Source: Candidatus Bathyarchaeota archaeon (lineage in GTDB: Archaea > Thermoproteota > Bathyarchaeia > 40CM-2-53-6 > DTDX01). Taken from it: a stretch of DNA of 64,000 nt. The position numbers and the translations under genes were made by a program. Each line of letters opens with the position of its first letter. Position 1 is the stretch's first letter. Below, one piece after another: positions 31,772-52,843 of this stretch. Location of the stretch: positions 1 to 64,000 of the forward strand of contig JAGTRF010000005.1 of assembly GCA_018396775.1 (NCBI GenBank), given 5' to 3'. The notes under the pieces were generated by a model. That model searched no databases. It saw only the letters and a program-made list of their open reading frames with translations, and was not told the DNA's origin.

Positions 31772-31772
31772 A

Positions 31773-32417: not shown

Positions 32418-32438
32418 AAATAAAAATAAGGTGTAATT

Positions 32439-32987
32439 TTGCTTCAAGAAGAAGATCGTAAAATAGCTTTAATTGAAGCAGCTCTTTATGCTTCTGGAAA
32501 ACCTTTAAGCTTAAAAGCTTTAGCTTCAATTCTTGATGGAAAAAGCTTAAAGGAAGCTAAAAAACTTGTTGAAGCTTTAATTAAACGCTATGAAGAATAT
32601 AAAGGTGCAATTCAAATCCTTAAGCTTAAAGACGAGAGATTTATGATGCGTCTTAAACCAGAGTATTTGCATAAAGTAAGAAAGTTTTGTGGGAAAAAAA
32701 TTCTTTCTTTAGGGCCTTTAAAAACGCTTTCCTTTATTGCTTACAAGCAGCCAGTTTCTAAAGCTTATGTAGCTAAAGTTAGGGGAAAACATGCTTATAA
32801 TCATGTAAAAATCTTAAAGGAATTAGGTTTTATTCATGAAGAAAAAACTGGGAAAACAAAGCTTTTAAAAACAACAACAGCTTTCGCTGATGCTTTTAAC
32901 TTAGATTACGATATTAAGAATATGAAGAAGCAATTAATGAAAATGTTTTCAGAGTTAAATCAAAAGCAACTTGAGCAGAAAATTTAA
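32439..32987 (+). CDS. scpB: Condensin KITE subunit ScpB
   Basis: 182 residues from TTG with a GGTG site upstream. Two winged helices: KIALIEAALYASGKPLSLKALASIL...KLVEALIKRYEEY and LGPLKTLSFIAYKQPVSKAYVAKVRGKHAYNHVKILKELGFI, the ScpB pattern. ScpB dimers bind the ScpA linker and modulate SMC ATPase. It completes the smc-scpA-scpB operon. Its 3' end overlaps by 4 bases with the tail of a minus-strand microprotein. Confidence 0.94.
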   Translation: MLQEEDRKIALIEAALYASGKPLSLKALASILDGKSLKEAKKLVEALIKRYEEYKGAIQILKLKDERFMMRLKPEYLHKVRKFCGKKILSLGPLKTLSFIAYKQPVSKAYVAKVRGKHAYNHVKILKELGFIHEEKTGKTKLLKTTTAFADAFNLDYDIKNMKKQLMKMFSELNQKQLEQKI

Positions 32988-38014: not shown

Positions 38015-38551
38015 TTAAATTCCCATAATGTTCTTCATTAATTCTTTTAAATCTACTTCAGCTTTAGTTCTCCAACCTATAGAAATAATTTTTTCTTCAT
38101 CCTCATTTAAGTAACCTGTTTTAATAAAAGAATCAATCAAGCTTGCAGCTTTCCATCTACCAATTTTATCTCCTAAAATTTTTTCTAAATCACTTCTTAA
38201 AGCTTTACCTTGATTGCTAATTAAGTAAGATAATGAAGCAGCTAATGCAGCTAAATTATCTATTCTCCAACCGCATAATTTTCCTTCAGTTAAATCTAAG
38301 CTTCCTTTTAAACGTGCTATATATCTAAACTCAGGTTTCTCAGATAAAAGTTCGCTTTCGGATTCAACCTTAACAACTTCTAAATCTAACTCGTTTAAAA
38401 ACTCGTTTAATTGATTTAAAACTTCAATATAGTTCTTTCCAAGCTTCTCTTTTAATTCCCATTCTTTAACACCAGGTTTTTTTCCTCGTTTAAAAAATAT
38501 TAAATGAACAGCTGTTTTAATTTTATCTAAATAAAGCTTTTCTTCTTTCAT
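38015..38551 (-). CDS. MAGE/Nse3-like tandem winged-helix (KITE) protein, putative SMC5/6-type subunit
   Basis: 178 residues. Residues ~8-85 look like the MAGE first winged helix: helix KIKTAVHLIFFKRG, recognition-type helices WELKEKLGKNYIEVLNQLNEFLNEL, then the strand pair LDLEVVKVES and FRYIARLKG (MAGE: FGLELVEV...YILVNKL). Residues ~97-172 match the second: NLAALAASLSYLISNQGKALRSDLEKIL, then AASLIDSFIKTGYLNEDEEK, then ISIGWRTKAEVDLKELM (MAGE: ...QDLVQEKYLVYRQ...EFLWGPRAHAE). Tandem winged-helix KITE proteins partner kleisins in SMC complexes. It begins directly after the Nse4-like stop. The comparison is by eye from known family patterns. Confidence 0.6.
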   Translation of the reverse strand: MKEEKLYLDKIKTAVHLIFFKRGKKPGVKEWELKEKLGKNYIEVLNQLNEFLNELDLEVVKVESESELLSEKPEFRYIARLKGSLDLTEGKLCGWRIDNLAALAASLSYLISNQGKALRSDLEKILGDKIGRWKAASLIDSFIKTGYLNEDEEKIISIGWRTKAEVDLKELMKNIMGI

Positions 38552-39310
38552 TTAAAACCCCTTTATAATTGATTTCTTAATAGAGATTGGAAAACTATTA
38601 GCAACAAATTTTTCATACTCAATTTTCTCAACTTTCTTATTTGGATATAAATAAAGTCTTTCTTTATTCTTAACCAAGGAAGCATATCCATAAGTAACTA
38701 AAAAACTTGTTACATACGCTCTTTTAACGATTGTTTGAAAATCTCCTTTACATATAAAAACCCAATAGTCTACTTTCCCTTTTTTACCAGCAAGCTCTAT
38801 CATTTCTCGCCAAAGATGCGTCATTAAAGCTGATATTTCTTCGCTCTTTTTTGAAACTTCGCTTTCCTCAACAATTTTTGGCATTTCAGGTGTTAACTCA
38901 ATTGATTTTTCTCTTCGATAAAATTGAATTTTACTCCAGTAAAGTAAACAATTATTAATGCTTTGAAAAGTTAACTGTTCCATTTCAATTAATGGATGCC
39001 AGCTTTTTAGAAAAGCTTTAGCTAACTCATCTAAGTTTAAAGAGTAAACTTTATTTTTTAAATCTTCAGGTTTAACGTAAAGCTTGCTCGATTGAAAAAG
39101 TAAATAAGCGTTTTGAAGTTCAACAACTTTGCTTAAAGCATTTAACGCTTTAGCGTCTAAACAATAATCTTTAAAATCTTTGCATAAACTAAAATATTCT
39201 CTTAAAATTTTAATCGCGTTAAATACATCAACTAAAAAAGGGTTTAATTTATGCTCTTCTACAGCTTTACAAGTCTCAAGAACATCTAAAACAGCTTTTT
39301 TAACCTTCAT
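38552..39310 (-). CDS. Nse4-like kleisin candidate, putative SMC5/6-type subunit
   Basis: 252 residues. The C-terminal third (~180-223, VDYWVFICKGDFQTIVKRAY then VTSFLVTYGYASLVKNKERL) follows the Nse4 C-terminal signature F/W-x-FV-x-x-P-x-SF-x-x-TVEN-x-F-x-x-SFLV-x-x-G almost position by position. It should be the winged helix that caps one SMC head. The N-terminal part is helical (residues 1-130, including DAKALNALSKVVELQNAYLLFQSS), as expected for the neck-binding half, with a charged linker (~135-160). It overlaps the SMC gene by 11 bases and abuts the MAGE-like gene. General annotation would call it hypothetical. The kleisin role is inferred from sequence pattern plus operon position. Confidence 0.6.
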   Translation of the reverse strand: MKVKKAVLDVLETCKAVEEHKLNPFLVDVFNAIKILREYFSLCKDFKDYCLDAKALNALSKVVELQNAYLLFQSSKLYVKPEDLKNKVYSLNLDELAKAFLKSWHPLIEMEQLTFQSINNCLLYWSKIQFYRREKSIELTPEMPKIVEESEVSKKSEEISALMTHLWREMIELAGKKGKVDYWVFICKGDFQTIVKRAYVTSFLVTYGYASLVKNKERLYLYPNKKVEKIEYEKFVANSFPISIKKSIIKGF

Positions 39311-41234
39311 TCCCTTTTAACTCGCTTACTTTAGACATTCCTTTAACGCTTTGAACAATTATTACATGAATATTGTCATTTGAAATATGTATTTCTCCAG
39401 GTGTAATAACTAAATACTGTTCTTTTCGATTTATCCAGCTTGAAGCAATTAATTCTGTTATTATTTCTCTATTCTTCGGATCCATATGTACATCAAATTC
39501 ATCTATTGCTCTGAAAGGTGCCGGGGTCTTCCTTTGTAAAGCTAAAAGAAAAGCGATTAAAGCTACGCTTCTTTCTCCACCGCTTTGCGTTAAAGAATCC
39601 AAGGATTTAGGTGCTCTTCCTTTAAACCCAACAGAAATCTCTAAACCCGCTTTCTCTATATCATCTTCATTAATCAATTTAGCTTCCCCTTTCCCACCTA
39701 AAAAGGATAGAATGAAATTATATTCCTCTGAAAGTTCTTTCAAAAAGTTTTTTAATATATTTGACCATAATTTTTGCCTATTTTTAAGTTCTTCTTGAAT
39801 CTTTTTTTTATTGTTTAAAACTTCTTCAGCTTTATTCTTCAATTTTTCAAAAGCTTCAGCGTAAGAATTATAAATTTCCTCCACATTTTCAGATATATTT
39901 GAATAAAGCTTTAATTGTTCTTCAACCATTTTTTTCTCTAAAATTAAATCTGAAAGCTTTTTATCAACAATAGTTTCAGAACCGAATTTTTCAGCTTCAT
40001 TCGCAAGCTCTTTAAGCGCATTCTCCTCAATAAGCTTTAGCTCTTCAATTTTGCAAATTTCTCGAGTTAAAAACTCTATTTTACGTTTTTCAACTTCAAG
40101 CTCGACTTTAAAATTAATTAAATTTAATTGAGTAGAATCAATTAATTCATTCAGCTTGATTAACTTCAGCTCCCATTCTTCTACAGCGTTGCTAATGCTT
40201 TGAAGCATCTCATCTAGCTTCTGCTTTAATTTATAAGCCTCCTCATAACTAATTATTTTTTCGTTAAAAAGTTCTGAAACAACCTTGAAAAAGGCTTCAT
40301 TTAAATATTTTTCCAGAAAAATATTTAATAGCTTTAACTTAGCTTTAACTTCAGCCTCCTCTTTAAGTAAGCTTATCAACTCTTTTAATTTAAACTCTCT
40401 TTCTTCAAGTGTTTTATTATAAATAGAGTTTTCAAAATTAATTTTTTCTAGAAGATTTTTAAGGTTAACTTCAGAGTTAACTTTTTGATTTTTTAACTCA
40501 TCTAGCTTACATAAAATTTTTGTTAAATCATCCTTTTTCTTTTTAACTTTTAACCATGCTGTCTCTCTATTAACTTCATTAAGCTTTAACGTTAAAGCTT
40601 GCTTCTTCAAAAATTTATCCCGTTCCTTCCTCCAGAAATCATAAGTTGCCTTTGTAGATTCAAGAAAATCCAAAAGCTTTTCTTCTTCGGTTTTAAGCTC
40701 TCTTAACCTATTAAACGCATTTAATATATCTTCTCTATAAGATTGAAAACCAATAGCTTCCTCAAGCATTTTAAGCTTTTCTTGAGGGGTTGTTAAACTA
40801 AATTTTCCAACCATAAGCTGATGCATAATCATCAGCATATTATCAGGGTTTAACCCAACTCTTTTAAAAGCTGAAGCCACATCGTTTTTTAAAAACCTTT
40901 TATCTTGAACAAAATAGGCGTATTCCCCATTTTTTCTAATTACTCTAGCCACTTCTATAAATTTATCTCTAAATTGAGGGAAAACCCTTCTTCCATCTTC
41001 AAGCTTATTGGTTATAGTTAAAGCTACTTTAGCTTCTTCTTGACCCCAACGAATTAAATCACTTAGCTTTTTAGCTCTTTCAGTATAAGATTGCCCTAAA
41101 ACAATAGAGATTGCTAAAAGAATAGATGATTTTCCAGAGCCATTAGGGCCGCAAACCAAATTTAATCCGCTAGTTAAAGGAATATATGCATTTTCATAAG
41201 ACATAAAGTTTTGAAGGTGAACTCCTTTAATCAT
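39300..41234 (-). CDS. Short SMC5/6-like (Rad50/SMC superfamily) ATPase
   Basis: 644 residues. N-terminal QNFMSYENAYIPLTSGLNLV precedes Walker A GPNGSGKS (29-36). KKLSDLIRWGQEEAKVAL then follows, in the style of Smc5/6 (SLKDLIRTGADSAKI). The Q-loop is IMHQLMVGKFSLTTPQEKLKMLEEAIGF (Gln ~139). Residues ~165-545 are coiled coil with a small break near 305-345 and no CxxC zinc hook or full hinge. Signature QSGGERS (550-556) and Walker B PFRAIDEFDVHMDPKNRE (574-591) are close to Smc6 (PFRCLDEFDVYMD) and Smc5 (MDPRNE), not to Rad50 or condensin. It is much shorter than eukaryotic Smc5/6, and nearer in size to the compact archaeal SMC relatives. It leads a tightly packed operon with the Nse4-like and MAGE-like genes. 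Confidence 0.85.
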   Translation of the reverse strand: MIKGVHLQNFMSYENAYIPLTSGLNLVCGPNGSGKSSILLAISIVLGQSYTERAKKLSDLIRWGQEEAKVALTITNKLEDGRRVFPQFRDKFIEVARVIRKNGEYAYFVQDKRFLKNDVASAFKRVGLNPDNMLMIMHQLMVGKFSLTTPQEKLKMLEEAIGFQSYREDILNAFNRLRELKTEEEKLLDFLESTKATYDFWRKERDKFLKKQALTLKLNEVNRETAWLKVKKKKDDLTKILCKLDELKNQKVNSEVNLKNLLEKINFENSIYNKTLEEREFKLKELISLLKEEAEVKAKLKLLNIFLEKYLNEAFFKVVSELFNEKIISYEEAYKLKQKLDEMLQSISNAVEEWELKLIKLNELIDSTQLNLINFKVELEVEKRKIEFLTREICKIEELKLIEENALKELANEAEKFGSETIVDKKLSDLILEKKMVEEQLKLYSNISENVEEIYNSYAEAFEKLKNKAEEVLNNKKKIQEELKNRQKLWSNILKNFLKELSEEYNFILSFLGGKGEAKLINEDDIEKAGLEISVGFKGRAPKSLDSLTQSGGERSVALIAFLLALQRKTPAPFRAIDEFDVHMDPKNREIITELIASSWINRKEQYLVITPGEIHISNDNIHVIIVQSVKGMSKVSELKGNEG

Positions 41235-41662: not shown

Positions 41663-41741
41663 AATTGCTTCTTTACCCATTTTCTAATCTATAGTTTATA
41701 TGAAAGCTTCAAATTATATTGAAGAAAAAGGTGCTTTTAAA

Positions 41742-42812
41742 ATGAGCGAGAAAACTTTGCTTGAAGAGAGAATAACTTTAGCTCATGGCGCTGGCGGAAT
41801 AATCATGCAAAAATTGATTAAAGATTATATTGTAAAGCATTTTGGCGGTAGTAAAGCTGAAGTCCCTTTAGAAGCTTTAGATGACGCTTCAGTTATAGAT
41901 GGAATAGTTCTTAAATCAGATTCTCACACAGTTAAACCATTATTTTTTCCAGGAGGCGATATAGGAAAACTATCTGTCTCCGGTACTGTAAATGATATCG
42001 CAGTTATGGGGGCTGAGCCAATAGCTTTAACTTCAGCTTTCATAATTGAAGAAGGCTTTCCCATTTCAGATTTTGAAAAAATAATTAAAAGCATGAAAAA
42101 CACTTGTGAGGAGGCTGGAGTTTACATTATAACTGGTGATACGAAAGTTATGGAGAAAGGTGCTTTAGAAAAATTTGTTATAAATACTTCTGGTATAGGA
42201 CGAAGAAGCGAAGCTTTAGAAAAAAATATTAATGAAGTAAAAAAATATAGGAAAAACTTTAATTCTAGATGGCTTGTAGACTCTAATATTGGGGATGGCG
42301 ATAAAATAATAGTTTCTGGAACAATAGGCGATCATGGCGTAGCTCTTTTATCTTATAGAGAAGGTTATGGGTTTGAAAGCGAAGTTAAATCTGATGCAAC
42401 TCCATTAAACAAAATGATTAAAAAGCTTCTTGAAGTTGGTGGAATAACTAAAATGAAGGATCCAACAAGAGGCGGTGTTTCAAACGCTTTAAATGAATGG
42501 AGTGAAAAATCTAAAATTGGAATTTTAATTCATGAAGATAAAATTCCAATTAAAGAAAGCGTTAAATCAGCTTGCGAAATGCTTGGCATAGACCCTTTAG
42601 AAGTTGGAAACGAAGGAAAAATTATTATCGCTGTTGTTCCAGAAAAAGCTGAAGAAGTGCTTAATGAATTAAAACGAAACTCTCAAGGTAAAGAAGCTGA
42701 AATAATTGGAGAAGCCACTAAAAAATTTAATGGAGTAGTATTAGAAACTAGCATTGGAGGAAAAAGGATTGTTCCCCCTCCATTAGGAGATCCTGTGCCT
42801 AGAATTTGTTAA
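41742..42812 (+). CDS. hypE: Hydrogenase maturation factor HypE
   Basis: About 356 residues from ATG 41742 with AGGTG upstream; an earlier in-frame ATG (41700) adds a non-conserved tail. LAHGAGGIIMQKLI, then LDDASVIDGIVLKSDSHTVKPLFFPGGDIGKLSVSGTVNDIAVMGAEP (ATP-binding), GDKIIVSGTIGDHGVAL, KDPTRGGVSNALNEWS. The protein ends in PRIC, the carbamoylated Cys that becomes the thiocyanate donor for the Fe(CN)2CO centre of [NiFe] hydrogenases. It is located directly before the complex-I operon. Confidence 0.96.
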   Translation: MSEKTLLEERITLAHGAGGIIMQKLIKDYIVKHFGGSKAEVPLEALDDASVIDGIVLKSDSHTVKPLFFPGGDIGKLSVSGTVNDIAVMGAEPIALTSAFIIEEGFPISDFEKIIKSMKNTCEEAGVYIITGDTKVMEKGALEKFVINTSGIGRRSEALEKNINEVKKYRKNFNSRWLVDSNIGDGDKIIVSGTIGDHGVALLSYREGYGFESEVKSDATPLNKMIKKLLEVGGITKMKDPTRGGVSNALNEWSEKSKIGILIHEDKIPIKESVKSACEMLGIDPLEVGNEGKIIIAVVPEKAEEVLNELKRNSQGKEAEIIGEATKKFNGVVLETSIGGKRIVPPPLGDPVPRIC

Positions 42813-42922: not shown

Positions 42923-43267
42923 ATGAGCGTAGAAAACATCTTTTGGTCGCCTCTAACTTTATTTATAGCTTCATTAATAGCTGCTGCAATTATATATGGA
43001 GTTGGAGGAATGCTTTCTCCAAAACCGAAAGCTAACCCTGATAAATTAGCTCCTTACGCATGCGGAGAAGACCTTCCTCCAGAAAAAACTAGATTATCTA
43101 TTATTCTATATAATTACGCTGCTTTATTCTTAATTTTTGATGTTGTAGCTATGGCTATAATTTTATCTATGGGGTTATCTATTTTAAGCCAGCCTTTGTT
43201 AATTTTAAGCTTATCTTATATGGCTATCATATTTATAGCTTTACTGCTTTTAGCTAGAAAAAAATAG
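42923..43267 (+). CDS. nuoA: NADH-quinone-oxidoreductase-like subunit A
   Basis: 114 residues, three membrane spans. The conserved element between TM1 and TM2 is PDKLAPYACGEDLPPEKTRLSI (NuoA: YECGxxP...), followed by LFLIFDVVAMAIIL, where the Asp of the FDVE motif is kept. It forms part of the membrane-peripheral junction of complex I. First gene of the operon 42923-49190. Confidence 0.93.
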   Translation: MSVENIFWSPLTLFIASLIAAAIIYGVGGMLSPKPKANPDKLAPYACGEDLPPEKTRLSIILYNYAALFLIFDVVAMAIILSMGLSILSQPLLILSLSYMAIIFIALLLLARKK

Positions 43268-43287
43268 TTGGAGGCTGTTAAAAAATA

Positions 43288-43743
43288 TTGAGTAAAGAGG
43301 AAGCTTTAATTGAAGAATTAAGAAGCTTATTTAAAGATAAGATTAAGGAAGCTAAAATCCAAAGGAGTAGGCGCATATTTATAACTGTACCAAAAGAAAA
43401 CTATAAAGAAATAATAGAGTATTTCGGTAAAAATAAGGGAGTAACTCATATTTCTACGATTACTGGGGTTGATGTTGGAAAAGAAATTGAAGTTTTACCT
43501 CATTTATTTGGGGTTGGAATGGAGATTACTATAAAAACTTCTGTTCCAAAAGATAATCCTGAGTTAGATAGTTTAGCCGATATTTTCCCAGCTTCAATAT
43601 TTTATGAGCGGGAAATTCATGATCTTTTAGGAGTTAAATTTAAAGGTAACCCTAACCTTAAAAGGCTTCTTCTTCCAGACGATTGGCCTGAAGGAGTATA
43701 CCCGTTAAGAAAAGAATTTAAAGTTGAAAGAAAAAGCGGTTAA
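43288..43743 (+). CDS. nuoC: Complex-I-like subunit C (30 kDa)
   Basis: 151 residues from TTG. VTHISTITGVDVGKEIEVLPHLFGVGMEITIKTSVPKDNPELDSLADIFPASIFYEREIHDLLGVKFKGNPNLKRLLLPDDWPEGVYPLRKEF is the complete NuoC signature (EREIxDLxGxxFxGHPxLRRLLLPDDWxxxPLRK). Subunit of the hydrogenase-like Q module. NuoB would normally precede it and NuoD follow, but neither is present here. Confidence 0.95.
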   Translation: MSKEEALIEELRSLFKDKIKEAKIQRSRRIFITVPKENYKEIIEYFGKNKGVTHISTITGVDVGKEIEVLPHLFGVGMEITIKTSVPKDNPELDSLADIFPASIFYEREIHDLLGVKFKGNPNLKRLLLPDDWPEGVYPLRKEFKVERKSG

Positions 43744-43764
43744 AGAAATTGGAGATGAGTAAAT

Positions 43765-44739
43765 ATGGCGTTTATAACTACTGTTGTAAACATTCTTAAA
43801 TTAATTATTTTCCCAGGATTTATATTCACGATATTTTTAAGCCTATTTTACGAATGGATTGATAGAAAATTTTATGCTAAACTTCAAAATAGAGTTGGCC
43901 CCCTTTATACAGGGCCATCAGGTTTACTTCAACCGCTTGCAGATTTTATTAAGCTTCTTTCAAAAGAAGATATTACTCCTGAAGCTGTTGACAAGTTATT
44001 CTTTACTTCCGCGCCTATTCTTGCTTTATCTTTAATGTTAACAGGAGTCTTTCTTTTACCAATTGCAACCACCTCTGGAATAATTTCTTTTAACGGCGAT
44101 GTTATAGTTGCTGTAGCTATAATGACTATTTTCTGCATTTTAGTATTTTTATCAGGTTTAGGTTCATTAAACAGGTTTGGGTTTGTTGGAGCTGAAAGAG
44201 CTGTAAGCCAATTGCTTGGCTATGAAATTCCAATGACTCTTGCTATAGCTAGCGTAGCTTTAGCTTCAAATTCATTAAAAATCTCTGAGGTAATAGCTAA
44301 GCAATCTTCATGGTGGTTTATTCTTGGGCCTCAAGCAATAGGGTTTGCAATATTTCTTATTGCTGCTCAAGCTGAGCTTGAACGTGTACCCTTTGATATT
44401 CCTGAAGCTGAGCAGGAAATAGTGGCTGGATGGCTTACAGAGTTTTCTGGAAGAAAACTTGCGCTTTTCAGGTTAGCTAGAAATGTTGAGCTTGTTTATG
44501 TTTCAGGTTTAGCTGCAACATTTTATTTAGGCGGTCCGCTTGGACCGGTTACTCCAGGGTTTGAAGCAGTTTTATTCCCAGTATACTTTATAATAAAAAC
44601 AATTATTGTTCTTCTTATAATTTCAGTTATTAGAGCAGCGTTTGCAAGATTAAGAATTGATCAAATGGTTAATTTTTCATGGAAATATTTAGTTCCTATA
44701 AGTTTACTTCAACTGCTTTTAGTTAGAGTTGTTATTTAA
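43765..44739 (+). CDS. nuoH: Complex-I-like subunit H
   Basis: 324 residues, about eight membrane spans. KLQNRVGPLYTGPSGLLQPLADFIKLLSKEDITPE matches the first NuoH signature, VGAERAVSQLLGYEIPM the second and AELERVPFDIPEAEQEIVAGWLTEFSGRKLALFRLARNVEL the third, with the quinone-site acidic residues kept. It links the Q module to the pumping arm. Confidence 0.96.
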   Translation: MAFITTVVNILKLIIFPGFIFTIFLSLFYEWIDRKFYAKLQNRVGPLYTGPSGLLQPLADFIKLLSKEDITPEAVDKLFFTSAPILALSLMLTGVFLLPIATTSGIISFNGDVIVAVAIMTIFCILVFLSGLGSLNRFGFVGAERAVSQLLGYEIPMTLAIASVALASNSLKISEVIAKQSSWWFILGPQAIGFAIFLIAAQAELERVPFDIPEAEQEIVAGWLTEFSGRKLALFRLARNVELVYVSGLAATFYLGGPLGPVTPGFEAVLFPVYFIIKTIIVLLIISVIRAAFARLRIDQMVNFSWKYLVPISLLQLLLVRVVI

Positions 44740-44754
44740 AAGGAGGAATGAAAA

Positions 44755-45006
44755 ATGGTGGCTGGAATAATTGATTACCTGCTTGTAATCTTAGCTGTAA
44801 TATTTTCTATTTTAGCCACTCAATATAAAGAATTAAATAGAGCTATAGCTTTTTTCGCTGTTGCTAATGTTGTAATCTCAATTATCTTTTACGTTCTTGG
44901 CGCACCTTACATAGCTGTTTTCCAGCTTTTAGTTTACGCTGGAGCTGTTACAGTATTATTCTTAACAGCTTTACACACTATAGGAGGAGAATCAAATGAA
45001 GAGTGA
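44755..45006 (+). CDS. nuoJ: Complex-I-like subunit J, N-terminal part
   Basis: 83 residues, three membrane spans; AVANVVISIIFYVLGAPYIAVFQLLVYAGAVTVLFLTALHTIG is the core of NuoJ (AxF..QIxVYAGAVxVLFLF). Full NuoJ has about five spans; the rest is encoded by the next gene with an 11-base overlap, so J is split in two, as in Mbh/Mbx and several archaeal complexes. Confidence 0.9.
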   Translation: MVAGIIDYLLVILAVIFSILATQYKELNRAIAFFAVANVVISIIFYVLGAPYIAVFQLLVYAGAVTVLFLTALHTIGGESNEE

Positions 45007-45283
45007 TGAAATGGATAAAACTGTTTCAGCTATATTAATATTAATTTTAATTTCAGTGATATTGACTTTCGGCTTAAGTTTATTTAATATTTCCATTCCA
45101 GTTTTAATTGAGAAGCCACCTATAGAAAAGTTTTTATGGTCTTACCGTGGAGTGGATATGTTAATTCAAGCTTTTTTGATTTTAGCTGCGGCAGCTGCAG
45201 TTTCAACTTTATTTAGAGTTGAGAAAGGCGCAGGTGCAGTTGAAGAAGCTGTTATAGAAAAATTGGAGGAAAAGGAGGAGTAA
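44996..45283 (+). CDS. Complex-I-like subunit J, C-terminal part
   Basis: 95 residues with two membrane spans (VSAILILILISVILTFGLSLF and MLIQAFLILAAAAAVSTLFRVEKG). The second span with the conserved R-V-E and acidic tail is like MnhB/MbhF-type halves following MrpB-like subunits. The role is inferred from position between the N-terminal J half and nuoK, not from a strong motif. Confidence 0.75.
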   Translation: MKSDEMDKTVSAILILILISVILTFGLSLFNISIPVLIEKPPIEKFLWSYRGVDMLIQAFLILAAAAAVSTLFRVEKGAGAVEEAVIEKLEEKEE

Positions 45284-45286
45284 ATA

Positions 45287-45598
45287 ATGGTTGAAGTTTG
45301 GCAAACATATATGGCTTGCAGCTTTATATTAACTGCTGTTGGATTGTATACAATAATTTCTATGAGAAACATGATTAGAACTATTATAGGAATAGAAATA
45401 ATAACTATCGCTGTAAACTTAAACTTTTTAGCTTTAGGTTCTAGAAATGGTTTTGTCGATTCTTTAGCTCAATCAATTGTTTTCATTTCTACAGTTATTG
45501 GAGCTGCTGTAGCTGCTATAGCTTTATCTTTAATAATAAATGTTTACAGGCATTATGGAACATTAGATTTAAAGAAGCTTAGAAGATTGAGGTGGTAA
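45287..45598 (+). CDS. nuoK: Complex-I-like subunit K (MrpC-like)
   Basis: 103 residues, three membrane spans. ACSFILTAVGLYTIISMRNMIRTIIGIEIITIAVNLNFLALG carries the conserved Glu in TM2 (IGIEIITIAVNL), followed by SIVFISTVIGAAVAAIALSLIINVYRHYGTL with an intact end. It forms a proton channel with J and N/M. Confidence 0.95.
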   Translation: MVEVWQTYMACSFILTAVGLYTIISMRNMIRTIIGIEIITIAVNLNFLALGSRNGFVDSLAQSIVFISTVIGAAVAAIALSLIINVYRHYGTLDLKKLRRLRW

Positions 45599-45600
45599 AA

Positions 45601-47142
45601 ATGGATATGCCATTAGTTTTGCAGCCGATAGCAATTTTATTGATAGCTGCAGCTTTAACGCCTTTAATAAGCATTTTAGGAGAGAAAATTAAGTTTAATA
45701 AGCTTAAAGATTTATTTGCAATTTTAGCTTTTACCTCAGCTTTTTACGCTTTAATCCTTCTTTATTTTAGAATAGAAGATTATGGAGTTCAATCCTTTAT
45801 TTTAGATAATTATCTTCCAATTAAAGGTGGAGTTGAAATATATGCGGATTCCTTAAGCTTGTTTTTATCCTTCATATTTTGTGGAATAGGATTGTTAGCT
45901 TCAATCTACTCTGTAAAATACATGGAGATTGATACAGGTTTAGATAGGTATTACACGCTTTTATTAATTCTTGTAGCTGGAATGATAGGTGTGGCTTTTT
46001 CAGGAGATTTCTTTAATCTTTATGTTTTCTGGGAAATGATGTGCATAGCTTCATATACGCTTGTTTCATTTAGAAAGTATAGATGGGAACCTGTTGAAGC
46101 TGGATTTAAATATTTAGTTATGAGCACTTTAGGTTCATTAATAGCGCTTTATGGAATAAGCTTGCTTTATGGATTAACTGGAACAGTTAACTTTAAAGGA
46201 ATGAGGGAAGCTTTAATATCCACTGCCGGATCTCAAATCCCGCTTTACATAATTTTATCAGCAATAATAGTTGGTTTCGGGGTTACAGCTTCAATTGTTC
46301 CATTTCATACATGGCTTCCAGACGCTCATCCAGCTGCTCCAAGCTCTATAAGCGCAATGCTTTCAGGTGTAGTAATTAAAACTGGAGTTTATGCGATAGC
46401 TAGAAGCTTATTTACGCTCTTTAATCCAGTAAACTTTGATTACGGCTTAGCTTTAATGATTTTCGGCGTCTTAACTATAACTGTAGCTAATTTTATGGCT
46501 CTTATGCAAAGAGATATAAAAAGGCTTTTAGCTTATTCAAGCATAGTAAATATAGGTTATATTATATCAGGGATAGGGATAGGAAGCTATATTCTATTTA
46601 AATATTATAGCATATATCCATCAACATCTTTAAGCGCAGCTGTATTCGCGATTATGGGGGCTTTATTCCATTTATTTAATCACGCTGTTGGAAAGGGAAT
46701 GTTATTCCTTTGCTCAGGCTGTTTTACGCATGAAGCTGCTACAAGAGATATTTTAAGCCTAGAAGGTATAGGTCGAAAAATGCCTTGGACTGGAGGCGCA
46801 TTCTCAATTGGATTATTAACTTTAGCTGGGGTTCCACCTCTTAGCGGTTTTTGGAGCAAACTCTTCATAATTTTAGCAGCCTTCAGCTTTCCTCAAAACA
46901 GCTTTATGAAAGCAATAGGCGTGATAATTGTTTTAAACAGCATTTTTGCAGCAGCATATTATCTTTGGCTTCTTCAAAGAATAATGATTAAAACACCTAA
47001 GATTAAAGCTTCTGAAGCTTCAATATTCATGGTTGCACCTATAATAGTTTTAGCAATTATATGCGTGATAATAGGTTTAATGCCTAACTTAATTATTAAT
47101 TTAGCTGAAAAAGCGGCTAAAGCAATGTTGGGAGGATGGTGA
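45601..47142 (+). CDS. nuoM: Complex-I-like antiporter subunit (NuoM/NuoN/MrpD family)
   Basis: About 513 residues from ATG 45601 (GAGGTG upstream). Twelve to fourteen membrane spans. FFNLYVFWEMMCIASYTLVSF contains the TM5 Glu, and IVPFHTWLPDAHPAAPSSISAMLSGVVIKTGVYAIARS the TM7/8 Lys region; a conserved His region appears in IMGALFHLFNHAVGKGMLFLCSGC. The MSAMLSG...VIKTG segment is more MrpD/MbhH-like than NuoN. It pumps H+ or Na+. Confidence 0.93.
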   Translation: MDMPLVLQPIAILLIAAALTPLISILGEKIKFNKLKDLFAILAFTSAFYALILLYFRIEDYGVQSFILDNYLPIKGGVEIYADSLSLFLSFIFCGIGLLASIYSVKYMEIDTGLDRYYTLLLILVAGMIGVAFSGDFFNLYVFWEMMCIASYTLVSFRKYRWEPVEAGFKYLVMSTLGSLIALYGISLLYGLTGTVNFKGMREALISTAGSQIPLYIILSAIIVGFGVTASIVPFHTWLPDAHPAAPSSISAMLSGVVIKTGVYAIARSLFTLFNPVNFDYGLALMIFGVLTITVANFMALMQRDIKRLLAYSSIVNIGYIISGIGIGSYILFKYYSIYPSTSLSAAVFAIMGALFHLFNHAVGKGMLFLCSGCFTHEAATRDILSLEGIGRKMPWTGGAFSIGLLTLAGVPPLSGFWSKLFIILAAFSFPQNSFMKAIGVIIVLNSIFAAAYYLWLLQRIMIKTPKIKASEASIFMVAPIIVLAIICVIIGLMPNLIINLAEKAAKAMLGGW

Positions 47143-47147
47143 AAACC

Positions 47148-49190
47148 ATGAGTAATGAATTTATTTGGCCAGCTTGGTTATGCTGGATAATTCCATTAAT
47201 AGGCGCAGGTTTAACACCAATATTTGCTAAAATCCATCCAAAGCTTAGAAACTATATGGCTGTGCTTTTCTCCTTTCTAGGAGCTTTATCAGCTGGGTTA
47301 TTAATACCTTATTTATGGCATTCAAAGCAGATTGAAAATCAAATTTCATGGATTTTAGTTCCAGGCGCTCCTATACTTCAAGAAATTAAAGCTGGCGTAA
47401 TAGCAGATCCATTAAGCATTATAATGGCAAATATTGTAGCTTGGATCTCATTTCTTATAATGGTTTATTCCTTAAAGTATATGGAGGAAGATCCAAGCTT
47501 AACAAGATACTGGTTTTTCATGAATTTATTTATAGGTAATATGCTTCTTTTAGTTATGTCAAACAATTTTGTTCAAATGCTTTTCGGTTGGGAAGGTGTT
47601 GGTTTATGCAGCTACGCGTTAATCGGCTTTTGGTATAAAGATTCAGAAAAAGATTGGCTTAAATGCTGGGTTGGTGAAGGAAAAGAAGCTTATCCACCAA
47701 GCCACTGCGGTTTAAAAGCCTTCTTAACAACTAGAGCTGGCGATGTAGGATTGTTAATTGGAATATTCATGATTTTAGCTTACGCTGGAACATTAAACTT
47801 TATTGAGCTTCAAAAAGGGGCTATTCTTAATGTTCCGCTTTGGATTTTAATTCCAGCAGCAATACTGCTTTTTATAGGTCCAATAGGTAAATCAGCTCAA
47901 TTACCGTTAATGGAGTGGCTTCCAGACGCTATGGCTGGTCCAACAACTGTTAGCGCGCTTATTCATGCAGCTACAATGGTTAAAGCTGGGGTATATCTTG
48001 TTGGAAGAGTTTTCCCAATATTTTATGAAGCTGCTTGGCAAAATGGTGTCCCAAACAATTTAGTAACATTCTTTTATGTTATAGCTTGGATAGGTGGGTT
48101 AACAGCTTTTGTTTCAGCCAGTCAAGCTATAGCTTCAACTGAAATAAAAAAAGTTTTAGCATACTCAACTGTCAGTCAAATAGGGTATATGATGATGGGT
48201 TTAGGCATAGCTGGTTCAACAGCAGAGTTTATTATAGGTTATGCCGGAGGCTTATTCCATTTAATGAGCCATGCTTTATTTAAAGCAGCTTTATTCCTTG
48301 GCGCTGGAGCAGCAATTCATGCTGCTGAATCAAGATTTATGTATCATATGGGTGGATTAAAAAGAAGCATGCCTATAACATTTTGGAGTATGGCTTTAAC
48401 AAGCTTTTCTTTAATGGGTGTTCCAATTCTTTTCAGTGGCTTCTGGAGTAAAGACATGATTTTAGAAGCTTCTCTTCTAGCTGGAAAATATTGGTTATTT
48501 ATGCTTGGAGCTTTAACAGTAGCTTTAACAAGCTTTTATGCTGTTAGAATGCTTGGATTAACGTTTTTTGGTGAAAAAAGCGAAAGAATTATTGAGCTTG
48601 AGAAAGAAGGTAAACCTCCAAAAGAAGCATCGCCATTAATGTATATTCCCTATTCTTTAATGGCTGCTGCAACAATTATGCTTGGTGTTACAGGATTTTA
48701 TATGAAAGATTGGTTTGAAAAAACATTTCATGAATTTTTATCTTCAATGATGCATGTTGAAGCTTCATCGCATATAGAAGCCATTAACATTCAACAAGCA
48801 ACTTGGATAACTACAGGCGCTTCTATAGCTATGCTTCTCTTAGGTGCTATTCCAGCTTACTTAATTTATATTAAAAGGTTTAAAAACCCGAAAGAATTAA
48901 TAGGAGGAAGCTTAAAACCTGTTTGGAACTTTCTTTACAATCGCTGGTATATAAATAGGCTTTACTATAGGTTATTCGTTGATTCAACAATTGGATTAAG
49001 TAAATGGAGCTTTAGTTATATAGAGAGTAAAGCTATAGATGGCTTTAATTACTTATTAGCTAATATAACAGTTAAATTTGTTAATCAATTTAGAAAAACG
49101 CATACAGGTGTATTAAACTATAACGTTATGGGAGTGCTTCTTGGAGGAATAGTTCTTTTATTAATTTTGCTTAAAATAGCTTTAGGTTAA
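47148..49190 (+). CDS. nuoL: Complex-I-like antiporter subunit L
   Basis: About 680 residues. Start at ATG 47148, 12 bases behind GGAGG; the ATG at 47136 overlaps the upstream stop with no room for a site. FVQMLFGWEGVGLCSYALIGFWYKD, FIGPIGKSAQLPLMEWLPDAMAGPTTVSALIHAATMVKAGVYLVGR, and LFHLMSHALFKAALFLGAGAAIHA are the NuoL signatures. The C-terminal ~120 residues include a long amphipathic helix (ITTGASIAMLLLGAIPAYLIYIKR...) as in NuoL with its lateral arm. Last gene of the operon. Confidence 0.95.
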   Translation: MSNEFIWPAWLCWIIPLIGAGLTPIFAKIHPKLRNYMAVLFSFLGALSAGLLIPYLWHSKQIENQISWILVPGAPILQEIKAGVIADPLSIIMANIVAWISFLIMVYSLKYMEEDPSLTRYWFFMNLFIGNMLLLVMSNNFVQMLFGWEGVGLCSYALIGFWYKDSEKDWLKCWVGEGKEAYPPSHCGLKAFLTTRAGDVGLLIGIFMILAYAGTLNFIELQKGAILNVPLWILIPAAILLFIGPIGKSAQLPLMEWLPDAMAGPTTVSALIHAATMVKAGVYLVGRVFPIFYEAAWQNGVPNNLVTFFYVIAWIGGLTAFVSASQAIASTEIKKVLAYSTVSQIGYMMMGLGIAGSTAEFIIGYAGGLFHLMSHALFKAALFLGAGAAIHAAESRFMYHMGGLKRSMPITFWSMALTSFSLMGVPILFSGFWSKDMILEASLLAGKYWLFMLGALTVALTSFYAVRMLGLTFFGEKSERIIELEKEGKPPKEASPLMYIPYSLMAAATIMLGVTGFYMKDWFEKTFHEFLSSMMHVEASSHIEAINIQQATWITTGASIAMLLLGAIPAYLIYIKRFKNPKELIGGSLKPVWNFLYNRWYINRLYYRLFVDSTIGLSKWSFSYIESKAIDGFNYLLANITVKFVNQFRKTHTGVLNYNVMGVLLGGIVLLLILLKIALG

Positions 49191-49199
49191 AAACAATTT

Positions 49200-49700
49200 T
49201 TATTCATTAAAGCTTGCTTTAATTAAAACTTTTTCTATAGTTTTAGTTATTTCCTCGCTTGCTTTAGCAAGCTCGCTTGTTAAACCCTCTCCAAAATCTA
49301 AACTTTTAGGTTGAATCCCTAATAAAGCAACTTTCGCGTTTGTTTCATAAGCTATAAATTTAGCTAAAAGACTTAAAGGTAAATCATGCGTTGAAAGAGA
49401 AAAATTGTTAATTTCATTTATACCTATTATTCTAGCGGATCCTGGTTCAACGCCTAAATTAGCCGCATCAATCATTAAAACATGGCTTGGTTCCGCTTCT
49501 TTCACTACGCTAGTAAAGCTTTCTGGAACTGTTTCGCATTCTAAAACTAAAGTTTTCGGAAGATTTCTTTCTTTAAGAAGTTTAGCTATAACTACGCCAA
49601 CATAATCATCTTTTCTAATTGAGCTTCCTATCCCTAAAACAACCATTTTTTTAAATCCTGAAGCCCATGAGTTTAACTCTTTTTCTAAATTTTCTTTCAA
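49200..49700 (-). CDS. hycI: Hydrogenase maturation endopeptidase (HycI family)
   Basis: 166 residues. VVLGIGSSIRKDDYVGVVIAKLL has the first metal-binding acid, HVLMIDAANLGVEPGSARII the second (Asp), and LSTHDLPLSLLAKFI the His. GIQPKSLDFGEGLTSELA completes the M52 family pattern. It trims the C-terminus of a [NiFe]-hydrogenase large subunit after nickel insertion. It is 12 bases downstream of hypF. No hydrogenase large subunit is in the window. Confidence 0.93.
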   Translation of the reverse strand: MKENLEKELNSWASGFKKMVVLGIGSSIRKDDYVGVVIAKLLKERNLPKTLVLECETVPESFTSVVKEAEPSHVLMIDAANLGVEPGSARIIGINEINNFSLSTHDLPLSLLAKFIAYETNAKVALLGIQPKSLDFGEGLTSELAKASEEITKTIEKVLIKASFNE

Positions 49701-49712
49701 AGCCTCTTCCTC

Positions 49713-51974
49713 CTAAAACATTTGAGCTGCCACATAAGCTTGACCAAGTGATACACCGCCATCTCCGCAAGGAACTTTCCTAGGATAAAAAAACTTTAAA
49801 CCATTTGCTTCAACAATCCCTCTTATAATTTGTGTTATATGCTCATTGCATGCTACACCTCCAGAGAAACCTATAAATTTAACTCCAAGCCTCTCAGCTT
49901 CAAGCACAGTAAATTCAGCTAAGCTTTTAGCAATGTATTCTTGAGCTGAATAAGCTAAGTTTTTAACGCTTTCTTTATTAAGGAGATGAAAGATTTCTTT
50001 TAAAAGGTTTTTTGTTTCAATAATGTTTCCTTTAAAGCTTAAAGGTAAATTTAAAACGTTTTTTCCACCTTTAGCAGCAGCTTCAAGCTTCATAGCAGGT
50101 TCCCCTTCATAAGTTCTTTCATAACAAACTCCTAGAACAGCTGAAACAGCGTCTAAAAGCCTACCGCAGCTTGAGGTTTCAGGGGCCTTCTTTTTTCTAG
50201 CATTTTTTAAAATTATTTCAGCTTCAATTCTTCCATTAGGAAAGCAATTTGCTTTGCTCAAAAACCATTCTTCAAACTTTTCTTCATCCTTTAATATTGC
50301 AGCAGCCATTCTTAAAGGATATTTAGTAGCTAAGTCTCCTCCAATCATTAAATGTTTTTCTAAATAACCTAAACGCTTAAATTCTTTTCCATAACAATAT
50401 AAAATTTCTCCACCCCAAGCTGACTTATCTATTCCATAACCAAACCCATCGCACGCTATCCCTATAATTTCATCTAAACTATATTCAGCTATTAATTTAG
50501 CTATATGCGCGTGGTGATGTTGAATTTGAAAAACAGGCGCATTTATTTCTTCGCTTAACTTTAAAGCTAAACGTGTTGTATTAAAAGTTGGATGTAAATC
50601 ACAAGCTATGCAATCAACTTCGCTTTTAACCAACTTAATTAAATTTCTTGTAGCTTCTTCAAGAAAAATTAATGTTTCAAGATTTTCCACATCCCCTATA
50701 TGCTGAGATAAAAAAGCTTTATCCTTAAGAATTATGCATGAAGTTGCATTAAGCTCCGCTCCAACTCCTAAAACGCAATTTTTAGCTTCCTTAATCTTCA
50801 CAGGCTCAGGCGCATAACCTCTAGATCTTCTAAGAAAGCTTAATTCTCCATCAACAACCTTAACCACTGAATCATCGCATCTTTGAGCTATATCTCTATC
50901 ATGAAAAAGATAATAATCAACTATCCCCTTAAACTTTTCAATTGCTTCTTGATTAGATATTGCTATAGGTTGATTTGGAGGGTTAGCGCTTGTCATAACA
51001 AATGCAGGTTCTTTAGCTTCTTTAAAAAGCATTAAATGCAACCCTGTATAAGGAAGCATAACTCCAACGCTATCTAAACCTGGGCTTATTTCTTCAGATA
51101 AATAATAATTTTCACTTTTTTTAAGCAATACAATTGGTTTAGCTGGAGATGTGAGAAGCTGAGCTTCTTTAAAGGAAACTTCAGCGAATGAAGCTGCAGC
51201 TTTAATGCTTCTAGCCATAATCGCAAACGGTTTTTGAGATCTATGCTTAGCTTTCCTTAATTTAATTATCGGTTTAGAGTTAAGGGTTGAAGTCGCTATA
51301 TGAAAGCCCCCGTTTCCTTTAACAGCTAAAATAAATCCTTCCTCAATTAATTTTCCAGCTTCAACAATTGGGTTTTCAATATTTAGTATTTCTCCATTAG
51401 CTTCAGTTAGATAAGCTTTTGGACCGCATTCATGGCAAGCTATTGTTTGAGCATGAAACCTTCTATTCAAAGGATCTTTATATTCTTTTTCGCATTCTTT
51501 GCACATAATAAACTTTCTCATAGTTGTGTTAACTCTATCATATGGAAGATCAGTTATTATCGTGAATCTTGGACCACAATTAGTACATGTTATAAAAAAA
51601 TAGTTGAATCTCCGATTTTTAGGATCCATAAGCTCAGCAGCGCATTCATCGCATATAGATAAATCAGCTGGAGCTATTGAACCTGAAAAAACCTTTTCTA
51701 AAGGGCTTAACTCGATTTTAAAATCTTTAAAAGTTTCTCCCCCGCTTAGATACTTCACCTCAATATTTTGAATAATTGCTGAAGGAGGCTTTTTATTCTT
51801 TAAATCCTCTAGAAAACCTGAAATTTCTTCATTAGAGCCTTCAATTAAAACTTCAACTACTCCATTTCTATTTCTAACATAACCCTTTAAACCACGTTTT
51901 GAAGCTAACCGATAAATAAATGGTCTAAACCCAACCCCTTGAACTCTACCTGAAACAGTTATTAAAGCCTTCAA
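49713..51974 (-). CDS. hypF: Carbamoyltransferase HypF
   Basis: 753 residues, full length. Acylphosphatase domain (VQGVGFRPFIYRLASKRGLKGYVRN), two zinc fingers each CxxC-x18-CxxC (CDECAAELMDPKNRRFNYFFITCTNCGPR and CKECEKEYKDPLNRRFHAQTIACHECGP), then YrdC-like (AIMARSIKAAASF), and a C-terminal Kae1-like region (IACDLHPTFNT, QHHHAHIAKLIAEY, FSGGVACNEHITQII). It makes thiocarbamate on HypE from carbamoyl phosphate for the CN ligands of [NiFe] hydrogenase. Confidence 0.97.
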   Translation of the reverse strand: MKALITVSGRVQGVGFRPFIYRLASKRGLKGYVRNRNGVVEVLIEGSNEEISGFLEDLKNKKPPSAIIQNIEVKYLSGGETFKDFKIELSPLEKVFSGSIAPADLSICDECAAELMDPKNRRFNYFFITCTNCGPRFTIITDLPYDRVNTTMRKFIMCKECEKEYKDPLNRRFHAQTIACHECGPKAYLTEANGEILNIENPIVEAGKLIEEGFILAVKGNGGFHIATSTLNSKPIIKLRKAKHRSQKPFAIMARSIKAAASFAEVSFKEAQLLTSPAKPIVLLKKSENYYLSEEISPGLDSVGVMLPYTGLHLMLFKEAKEPAFVMTSANPPNQPIAISNQEAIEKFKGIVDYYLFHDRDIAQRCDDSVVKVVDGELSFLRRSRGYAPEPVKIKEAKNCVLGVGAELNATSCIILKDKAFLSQHIGDVENLETLIFLEEATRNLIKLVKSEVDCIACDLHPTFNTTRLALKLSEEINAPVFQIQHHHAHIAKLIAEYSLDEIIGIACDGFGYGIDKSAWGGEILYCYGKEFKRLGYLEKHLMIGGDLATKYPLRMAAAILKDEEKFEEWFLSKANCFPNGRIEAEIILKNARKKKAPETSSCGRLLDAVSAVLGVCYERTYEGEPAMKLEAAAKGGKNVLNLPLSFKGNIIETKNLLKEIFHLLNKESVKNLAYSAQEYIAKSLAEFTVLEAERLGVKFIGFSGGVACNEHITQIIRGIVEANGLKFFYPRKVPCGDGGVSLGQAYVAAQMF

Positions 51975-52072
51975 AACTGTCTTTTCACCAGCTTAAAAAT
52001 TATTTTAACAGTGTGAAACTTAAATTTATTTATAGCTTTACAATTCTCTTTCATTCCTTTAGGAGAACAAAG

Positions 52073-52843
52073 ATGAAAATTGTTAAAACTCTTGTAAGAA
52101 AACTTGATTTAAACAAAGGTTTAGTTGAAGATGTTTTAGACGATGTTGCAGTTGAGACACCTGTAAAAATATATTTAAATAATGAATTTTACGCAACATT
52201 GATGGCTACACCTAATCAATTAAAAGAGTTAGCTGTAGGATTCTTAATAGGAGAAGCTTTAATAAAAAATATGAATGAAATTAAAGAGGTTAAAATTGAA
52301 GATTCAAGCGTTAAAATAAATTTAATTGAGAAGAAAGCTGTAAACCATACGAGAAAGCTTATTTTAACAGCTTGCACCTCAAGCGAGGATTTTATAAACC
52401 AGTTATTGAATTCTGAAACACCTATTGTAGAATCAAATTATAAGATTAAAGCTTTTGAAGCTTCAGAAATGATGGAAGAATGCATTAAAAAAGCTGAGTT
52501 CTCTAGAATTACTGGAGGCGTGCATTTTGCTGGTGTATTTCAAGATAAAGAGCTAAAAGCTTTTGCTGAAGATGTTGGTCGCCATAACGCTATGGATAAA
52601 GCTATAGGTTTAGCAGCCTTAAATAATATTAAATTTCAAAATTCTGTATTAGTTTCTTCTGGAAGGCAGCCTGCAGATATGGTTTTAAAAGCAGCTAGAG
52701 CTGGGCTACCCATCTTAGTTTCAATGAGAGCTCCTTTGTTATCAGGAATAAATGTTGCTAAAGCGCTAGGAGTCACCTTAATTGGCTTTGCTAGAAAATG
52801 GAGAATGAATATTTACTCCTTTCCTGAAAGGATATTAATTTAA
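52073..52843 (+). CDS. fdhD: Formate dehydrogenase accessory sulfurtransferase FdhD
   Basis: About 256 residues from ATG 52073 with AGGAG upstream; the in-frame start 60 bases earlier has none. LMATPNQLKELAVGFLIGEALI, GGVHFAGVFQDKELKAFAEDVGRHNAMDKAIG, SSGRQPADMVLKAARAGLPILVSMRAPLLSGINVAKALGVTLIGFAR are all characteristic. The active-site loop reads LTACTSSED: a single Cys where E. coli has CxxC. FdhD passes sulfur from IscS/NifS to the molybdenum or tungsten cofactor. With hypF, hycI and moeA nearby it points to a formate dehydrogenase or hydrogenlyase. Confidence 0.93.
   Translation: MKIVKTLVRKLDLNKGLVEDVLDDVAVETPVKIYLNNEFYATLMATPNQLKELAVGFLIGEALIKNMNEIKEVKIEDSSVKINLIEKKAVNHTRKLILTACTSSEDFINQLLNSETPIVESNYKIKAFEASEMMEECIKKAEFSRITGGVHFAGVFQDKELKAFAEDVGRHNAMDKAIGLAALNNIKFQNSVLVSSGRQPADMVLKAARAGLPILVSMRAPLLSGINVAKALGVTLIGFARKWRMNIYSFPERILI

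Follow-up and report, generated by a model that had tools for sequence, protein, structure and literature searches.

The operon at positions 42923-49190 of the window, a 64,000-nucleotide stretch of Bathyarchaeia DNA (Candidatus Bathyarchaeota archaeon, GCA_018396775.1, contig JAGTRF010000005.1), very probably encodes the membrane arm, together with subunit C, of an Fpo-like, 11-subunit group-4 [NiFe] hydrogenase of the Hfo kind. Subunits B, D and I of the same complex would be supplied by a second operon, and subunit N by a gene in a third place. As far as can be judged from sequence, the enzyme is of a published kind in a gene arrangement that we have not seen described. What we infer in this reading is that the window's own genome has B-D-I and that the parts assemble into one complex, as well as which electron carrier and ion are used and in which direction the reaction runs. 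The window is contig C5 of a metagenome-assembled genome (MAG) of 1.33 Mb in 24 contigs, 98.5% complete, here called G000 (family f1). It was compared with G001, of the same genus and rated 100% complete, with G007 and G002, of a second family of the same order (f2), and with a further family of that order (f3). The genes of the operon are the following.

42923..43267, + strand: hfoA, NuoA-like (PF00507, 9.3e-9; 74% identity to G001)
43288..43743, + strand: hfoC, NuoC-like, 151 amino acids (aa), TTG start (PF00329, 1.8e-30)
43765..44739, + strand: hfoH, NuoH-like (PF00146, 2.4e-91)
44755..45006, + strand: hfoJ, N-terminal half (PF00499, 2e-9; MbhD, 1.9e-7)
44996..45283, + strand: hfoJ, C-terminal half (assigned by position and 73% identity to G001)
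45287..45598, + strand: hfoK, NuoK-like (PF00420, 3.7e-22)
45592..47142, + strand: hfoM, antiporter-like (PF00361, 1.4e-60)
47136..49190, + strand: hfoL, NuoL-like (PF00361, 3e-65; TIGR01974 NDH_I_L above cut-off, 1e-148)

The eight genes thus run in the order A-C-H-J(N)-J(C)-K-M-L on one strand, with B, D and I missing from the operon. An original prediction, made from the letters alone, had read the same order (with M/N for the antiporter gene) and the same absences, and Pfam and NCBIfam scans bear it out for every gene except the C-terminal half of J (44996-45283), which gave no match in either and takes its name from its place. Spacing is 15-21 bp between A, C, H and the first half of J and 3 bp between the second half and K, and genes overlap at the junctions of the two J halves, of K with M and of M with L; because the gaps are tiny or the genes overlap, B, D and I cannot be hidden within the operon. 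G001 holds the same A-C-H-J-J-K-M-L operon at 73-88% identity, in a gene order conserved from hypE through fdhD, and in G007 and G002 the operon reads A-C-H-J-J-K-M-L-N, with N at its end.

The missing subunits are found elsewhere in the relatives. On the 623 kb contig C1 of G001, a B-D-I operon (340347-342394) is about 294 kb away from the A-C-H operon (39.6-45.9 kb), which shows that the distance between the two halves is real and that no break in the assembly has divided them. The same B-D-I operon is present in G007 and G002, on contigs other than those of the membrane operon, and all 11 subunits (A, B, C, D, H, I, J, K, L, M and N) could be read in both genomes. The gene sets of the two operons are complementary. 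The NuoD family has one strong and one weak match (2.5e-4) in G001, which also carries one short NuoB-type gene, its remaining three PF01058 matches being open frames of 178-296 aa.

The nature of the complex shows in subunits D and B. In all three relatives, the D of the B-D-I operon carries the motifs RICGICNVAH and DPCMCCMDR (L1 and L2), with all four [NiFe] cysteines, and its cysteine pairs align with those of the large subunits of membrane-bound hydrogenase (MBH) and formate hydrogenlyase (FHL). Its nearest solved chains are the MBH alpha subunit (6cfw_L, 2.7e-78) and HycE of FHL (7z0s_E, 1.2e-76), followed by complex I (2fug_4, 7.9e-64). In a tree of hand-picked D proteins, rooted by our choice and with several weak deeper nodes, the cysteine-less D proteins cluster with E. 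coli NuoD in a single clade (99.4/100) and the D of the split operon falls outside it, grouped with cysteine-bearing D proteins of other Bathyarchaeia, of a MAG labelled Nitrososphaeria and of Methanomethylicota (90.4/90). This grouping includes the D proteins of Methanomethylicus and Methanosuratincola, and the split D is adjacent to that of genome G004 (99.7/100). Subunit B has a hydrogenase-type CxxC, reading CNACDIE in G001. Among 90 loci scored for both B and D (L055 and L100, which are one contig, being counted twice), 82 combine CxxC with both D motifs, seven combine a tandem CC with neither, and in one B was left unassigned; this pairing agrees with the tandem CC being, as we take it to be, a mark of complex I. 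Because D has four [NiFe] cysteines and B has CxxC, the complex is best classed as a group-4 hydrogenase of the Hfo kind and not as Nuo or Fpo. The proposals that catalytic, hydrogenase-like subunits lie elsewhere and that the enzyme is a hydrogenase rather than an NADH dehydrogenase thus find support in G001, G007 and G002, where these subunits were read, and not in G000 itself. A wider set of 80 named loci, the best 80 of 581 relatives, has both [NiFe] motifs in 80 of 80 D proteins, a figure biased by design since the scan was made with a cysteine-bearing D as query. The extra cysteine of L2 was rejected as a novelty: in a count that includes duplicate contigs, it occurs in 26 of 97 D proteins (18 DPCICCAER, 4 DPCMCCMDR, 2 DPCFCCMDR, 1 DPCLCCADR and 1 DPCYCCTER), three of the 97 giving no L2 match.

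Phylogenies suggest that the two halves belong together. The multi-genome FastTree set comprised only loci in which B, C and D are all present, sequences shorter than 330 (D), 120 (C), 120 (B), 280 (H) or 95 (I) aa being dropped. In the C and D trees, of 83 proteins each, the C of the membrane operon and the D of the B-D-I operon fall in the same 14-member clade, with support of 0.93 and 0.80, respectively; besides the split genomes, it comprises G004, L089-L093, L113, L132-L134 and L162. Of the split genomes, G007 is in the D tree, which lacks G000, and G000 is in the C tree, which lacks G007, whose C was dropped because the start set by the caller of open reading frames (ORFs) gave only 107 aa. 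By B and I, the split genomes group with G004 and L089-L093; by H, they group with L113, L132-L134, L162, L095 and L096, then with L089-L091. Because the trees match and the gene sets are complementary, these data support the descent of both halves from one ancestral complex whose genes were later separated.

In G000 itself, whole-genome searches with the NuoD and NuoB families gave no match on the window's contig. Elsewhere, NuoD-family matches comprise a 550-residue HycE-type C/D fusion on C6 and a weak (3.8e-4) large-subunit-type gene on C14, and the NuoB family has four genes: one by the C6 fusion, one by the C14 large subunit and one each on C1 and C9, the latter two being frames of 271 and 288 residues that adjoin large-subunit-like genes. 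The antiporter family is represented by M and L of the window, a gene on C6 and a third NuoM/N-type gene at C1:1551-3059 (- strand); the claim that only two antiporter subunits are present therefore stands for the operon and fails for the genome. This third gene is flanked by genes read by eye as A-type ATPase subunits. The entire membrane operon of G007, including N, adjoins such ATPase genes, an arrangement that may explain where the N-type gene of G000 is found.

The absence of B-D-I from G000 probably reflects a piece missing from the assembly. Segment C1:326394-331942 of G001 aligns with C15 of G000 as far as that contig's final base, and the alignment of C1:368225-371709 with C13 sets in at base 625; the two flanks are collinear and match at 81-88%, with about 36 kb of G001 between them not placed in G000. 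When 20 kb and 12 kb of this stretch were used as queries (40 of 417 and 40 of 327 candidates scored) and nearly all G000 contig ends were tested (all but the start of C5 and the final 0.9 kb of both C6 and C20), no match of flank strength emerged apart from one gene region on C6. The remaining matches were to C7 (73%), C14 (70%), the hydrogenase genes of C6, a stretch of 165 bases on C13 and some short pieces; the C7 match was rejected as a second flank, since it runs the wrong way into its contig and reaches 73% against the 81-88% of the flanks. A Trm5-like tRNA methyltransferase (by eye) of the stretch, queried with the G001 gene, had no protein match in G000, an empty answer that is not proof by itself; archaea are expected to need such an enzyme. 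It appears, then, that B-D-I is probably missing because some 36 kb are absent between the end of C15 and the start of C13, a missing contig being the simplest reading.

If the products of the membrane operon, the B-D-I operon and the separate N gene come together as a single membrane complex, subunit I would accept electrons from ferredoxin or donate them to it, B would hand electrons to the [NiFe] centre in D, D would reduce protons to H2 or oxidise H2, and the arm formed by A, H, J, K, L, M and N would couple this redox step to the movement of H+ or Na+. The redox partners are most likely ferredoxin, reached through I and B, and H2, handled at D. Loh et al. (2021, PMC7886697), in the part of that paper used here and below, favoured H2-driven ferredoxin reduction in their organisms.

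The membrane subunits were also compared with E. coli complex I at selected positions that we take to be functionally important. L keeps all eight NuoL positions compared and H seven of the nine of NuoH, with E36 replaced by Asp and G240 by Ala. M keeps three of the seven NuoM positions (E144, K265 and H348), the substitutions being K234 to Thr, E407 to Lys, E108 to Tyr and H322 to Asn. Conservation is partial in A (2/4: K46 and D79, not E51 and E81), in K (1/2: E36, with E72 replaced by Val) and in J (1/3: Y59, not E55 and E80). Where the motif was found, the lysine position of transmembrane helix 7 (TM7) is Lys in 21/21 N and 26/26 L sequences, and among 52 M sequences 40 have Lys there, 11 have Thr and one has Val. 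The threonine-bearing M group includes the cysteine-less complex of G040; being common to 11 of the 52 M proteins, the threonine is an inherited trait and not a defect of the window's genome.

Several observations weigh against a hydrogenase divided between operons. None of the NuoD- or NuoB-family genes of G000 fits the window operon, B-D-I was not seen in the genome's own assembly, and the peripheral subunits on C6 could in principle serve the window's arm, though C6 has its own H and antiporter genes. As regards the proposed gap, a region of the missing stretch with an AAA-type (Cdc48-like, by eye) gene matches inside C6 at 83%, continued at 73-75%; this match may be to an orthologue, or instead a paralogue, of one gene of the stretch. 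CofD, which in G001 lies elsewhere, on C4, was likewise not found in G000. The D, B and I trees join G007 to G001 and not to G002 of its own family (support 0.75-0.84). Ion pumping by every unit is not assured, because the TM7 lysine is missing from M, as are some acidic residues of E. coli complex I from K, A and J. Lastly, none of the subgroup 4g hydrogenases had been characterised according to Loh et al. (2021, PMC7886697).

One alternative is a true loss of B-D-I, the operon then being either a relic or the source of an ion-translocating complex that has no redox arm. A 98.5% complete assembly without a fitting NuoD- or NuoB-type gene speaks for it, as does the distribution of CofD, found in the five other genomes searched (G001, G002, G007, G003 and G040) and without a match in G000, which may reflect some real loss around F420 chemistry. 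However, the unplaced 36 kb runs from the very last base of C15 to within 625 bases of the start of C13, and it carries other genes, among them the unmatched Trm5-like one. Moreover, genes A to L are open and conserved at 73-88% with G001, and L retains its eight residues. After the synteny and Trm5-like tests this alternative was largely rejected, and we consider it improbable.

A respiratory complex of the Nuo/Fpo type, passing electrons from NADH or F420H2 to quinone or methanophenazine, is more doubtful still. In its favour, among NCBIfam models C, H and L are best matched by those of complex I and Fpo (A weakly so), and the nearest solved chains of the window's H are those of NDH/complex I (9.9e-55, as against 4.5e-30 for 6cfw_M and 1.2e-19 for FHL subunit 4). 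In addition, f3, in the same order, has a cysteine-less D in a split B-C-D-I-FrhB operon. Against this stand the split-operon D proteins of the relatives, three of three with both [NiFe] motifs and outside the NuoD clade, and the CxxC of B. The least credible partner for the window's arm is the HycE-type set on C6, with which it would form an FHL-like complex: an iron-sulphur protein is encoded on C6 alongside antiporter-, CD-, H-, I- and B-like genes, and fdhD lies in the window, but the candidate was rejected because C6 already has an antiporter gene, an H gene and a C that is fused to D. In addition, G001 keeps the window operon with the D of B-D-I as its sole PF00346 match over cut-off. 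The FHL variant suggested by the original prediction accordingly gained no support, in searches that did not include formate dehydrogenase.

A hydrogenase divided between operons agrees in most respects with Hfo as described for Bathyarchaeia (Loh et al. 2021, PMC7886697), as far as that source is used here. Subunits A, C, H, J, K, L and M are found in the window and B, D and I in its relatives, D carries the L1 and L2 cysteines, a complex-I-like membrane arm is joined to a hydrogenase catalytic unit, and the organisms are of the same archaeal class, with relatives in Methanomethylicota, a group that Loh et al. compare as well. It differs in that the published clusters have the Fpo gene organisation, whereas here B-D-I is separate and N lies in a third place in G000, and in that the L2 motif is given there with A/G/S/T where Cys stands here (DPCMCCMDR). 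Although a single cluster in Fpo order is lacking, the complex is still counted as Hfo, because that order is a trait of the described clusters and not of the enzyme. MBH of Pyrococcus furiosus (6cfw) is the closest solved relative of D; however, the window's H resembles NDH/complex I far more than it does 6cfw_M, and a NuoA-like gene is present here. NuoA in a hydrogenase was rejected as a novelty, since an A gene is found in 64 of the 80 named loci and is hence common. Respiratory complex I and Fpo share the subunit set and membrane arm, with the difference that D here has [NiFe] cysteines and B a CxxC rather than CC. In FHL (Hyc/Hyf), C is fused to D, whereas here C is a separate protein of 151 aa and D is separate in the relatives.

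Separation of the two arms is as such already known from parts of two reports: Qi et al. (2021, PMC8407382) describe divergent, rearranged or incomplete fpo-like operons in Bathyarchaeia families, a likeness to the present case, with the [NiFe] ligands of D not treated in the portion of text concerned, and split gene clusters are known for bacterial complex I (PMC12361115). In the sections consulted, B. tardum (PMC10477458) has a Nuo-like cluster whose D carries L1 and L2, read as Hfo, and a complete Bathy-6 MAG (PMC11697101) has FpoF and FpoJ at locus numbers apart from a BICDNHM block; neither section describes an A-C-H/B-D-I split. No description of that split was found in the literature searched, most subscription papers lying outside it and Qi et al. 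being compared by text only. Among named loci of at least 15 kb, 34 of 39 have A, B, C and H in the locus with D. In G041, G042, G043 and G046, A-H membrane loci lie on contigs other than those of the B-C-D(-I) loci, the H of G042 consisting of two broken frames and the loci of G043 lying on short contigs; in G044 and G045 (0.6 and 1.4 Mb), which have B-C-D-I loci, the search for H gave none. G036 has a cysteine-less D in B-C-D-I apart from an H locus. The break point thus differs, C staying either with the membrane arm (A-C-H and B-D-I) or with the redox genes (A-H and B-C-D-I), and only f1 and f2 keep C in the membrane operon among the separated cases examined. Loh et al. proposed Hfo as a closer link than Mbh between energy-converting hydrogenases and respiratory complexes (part of PMC7886697). 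A membrane arm and a redox arm kept as separate genetic units would be a natural record of the modules thought to build complex I. Such an operon is open to misreading as a truncated NADH dehydrogenase, and its missing subunits should be sought elsewhere in the genome.

Two further arrangements were seen along the way. Three f3 genomes (G003, G022 and G018; L182, L184 and L186) have a cysteine-less D in a B-C-D-I-FrhB operon apart from an A-H-J-K-N-L-N-M operon, which looks like a split F420H2 dehydrogenase. In G004, a B-C-D-I locus (L050:8056-10510) has a D with both [NiFe] motifs, and the sole NuoH-family gene found sits in another cluster, on C16; either the membrane arm fell in an assembly gap or the module is soluble.

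A possible link to F420 is suggested by the surroundings of B-D-I. In G001, G007 and G002, a convergent gene of the FrhB/FpoF family ends 9-57 bp behind I (family scans were made with the G001 gene, whose nearest solved chains are beta subunits of F420 hydrogenases and dehydrogenases). The case that was to count against a hydrogenase, a separate NuoBDI operon in a genome without a hydrogenase large subunit, was not what emerged, since the operon adjoining this gene has a D that is itself such a subunit. An FrhB-family gene is found no more than 3 kb from genes of the complex in 7 of the 80 named loci, in all three B-D-I loci, in three of four f3 B-C-D-I loci (not L188) and in three of the four A-H loci of G041, G042, G043 and G046 (not L178); none was found near the three f3 A-H loci. 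The FrhB proteins of f1 and f2 are sister to those of f3 (0.994, FastTree). One could envisage, as a tentative and rather unlikely extension, an F420-linked ion-pumping [NiFe] hydrogenase in which the FrhB/FpoF-like protein docks on the peripheral arm and F420H2 oxidation to H2, or the reverse, is coupled to ion transport. Its low rank reflects this distribution of FrhB genes and the failure to find CofD in G000. Because the same FrhB lineage ends the nickel-less, Fpo-type B-C-D-I-FrhB operon of f3, one exchangeable F420 module may serve both hydrogenase and dehydrogenase. Loh et al. (PMC7886697) report FrhB without hydrogenase subunits in Bathyarchaeia, a puzzle that the F420 link, if true, could answer.

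The operon is flanked by maturation genes, placed where the original prediction had put them.

41700..42812, + strand: hypE (TIGR02124 above cut-off, 3.6e-118), 110 bp upstream of the operon and in the same place in G001
49200..49700, - strand (convergent): hycI-type maturation protease (TIGR00142 above cut-off, 3.1e-38)
49713..51974, - strand: hypF-like gene, an ORF with an 83% identical gene in the same place in G001
52013..52843, + strand: fdhD (PF02634, 2.6e-66)

The name hypF for the gene at 49713..51974 comes from that prediction and from what we presume of such genes, outside the family scans. In G007 and G002, maturation genes were not found adjoining the membrane operon.

Other hydrogenase loci were met in G000. 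The C6 cluster (L044:6499-15838) is of the HycE-type group 4 and includes an iron-sulphur protein and H-, I-, B- and antiporter-like genes of its own. Behind it come genes of the HdrB-like (CCG), FAD-oxidase (GlcD-like) and CCG/Fe-S types, and the locus may represent a hydrogenase linked to a hydroxy-acid dehydrogenase or an Hdr-type enzyme. On C9 (L045:7972-11794), genes for [NiFe] large (PF00374) and small subunits adjoin methylene-tetrahydrofolate reductase (PF02219) and a C-terminal partner (PF12225). The C14 locus (L046:4073-11601) is Hox-like, with NuoF-like and NuoG-like subunits and a hydrogenase small and large subunit, its NuoF-like protein of 1028 aa having an extra pyridine-nucleotide oxidoreductase domain.

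Upstream in the window, a cassette of three genes on the - strand (38015-41234) resembles a Smc5/6-Nse-like set. It encodes an SMC-type ATPase of 644 aa (PF02463, 4.8e-37), a protein of 252 aa with a sub-threshold Nse4_C match (PF08743, 6e-4, 20.4 bits against a cut-off of 26) and a protein of 178 aa without a match in Pfam and PADLOC scans. The cassette is absent between moeA and hypE in G001, the one interval of that genome searched for it. An ordinary SMC-ScpA-ScpB set lies near the cassette, at 28259-32987 of the window.

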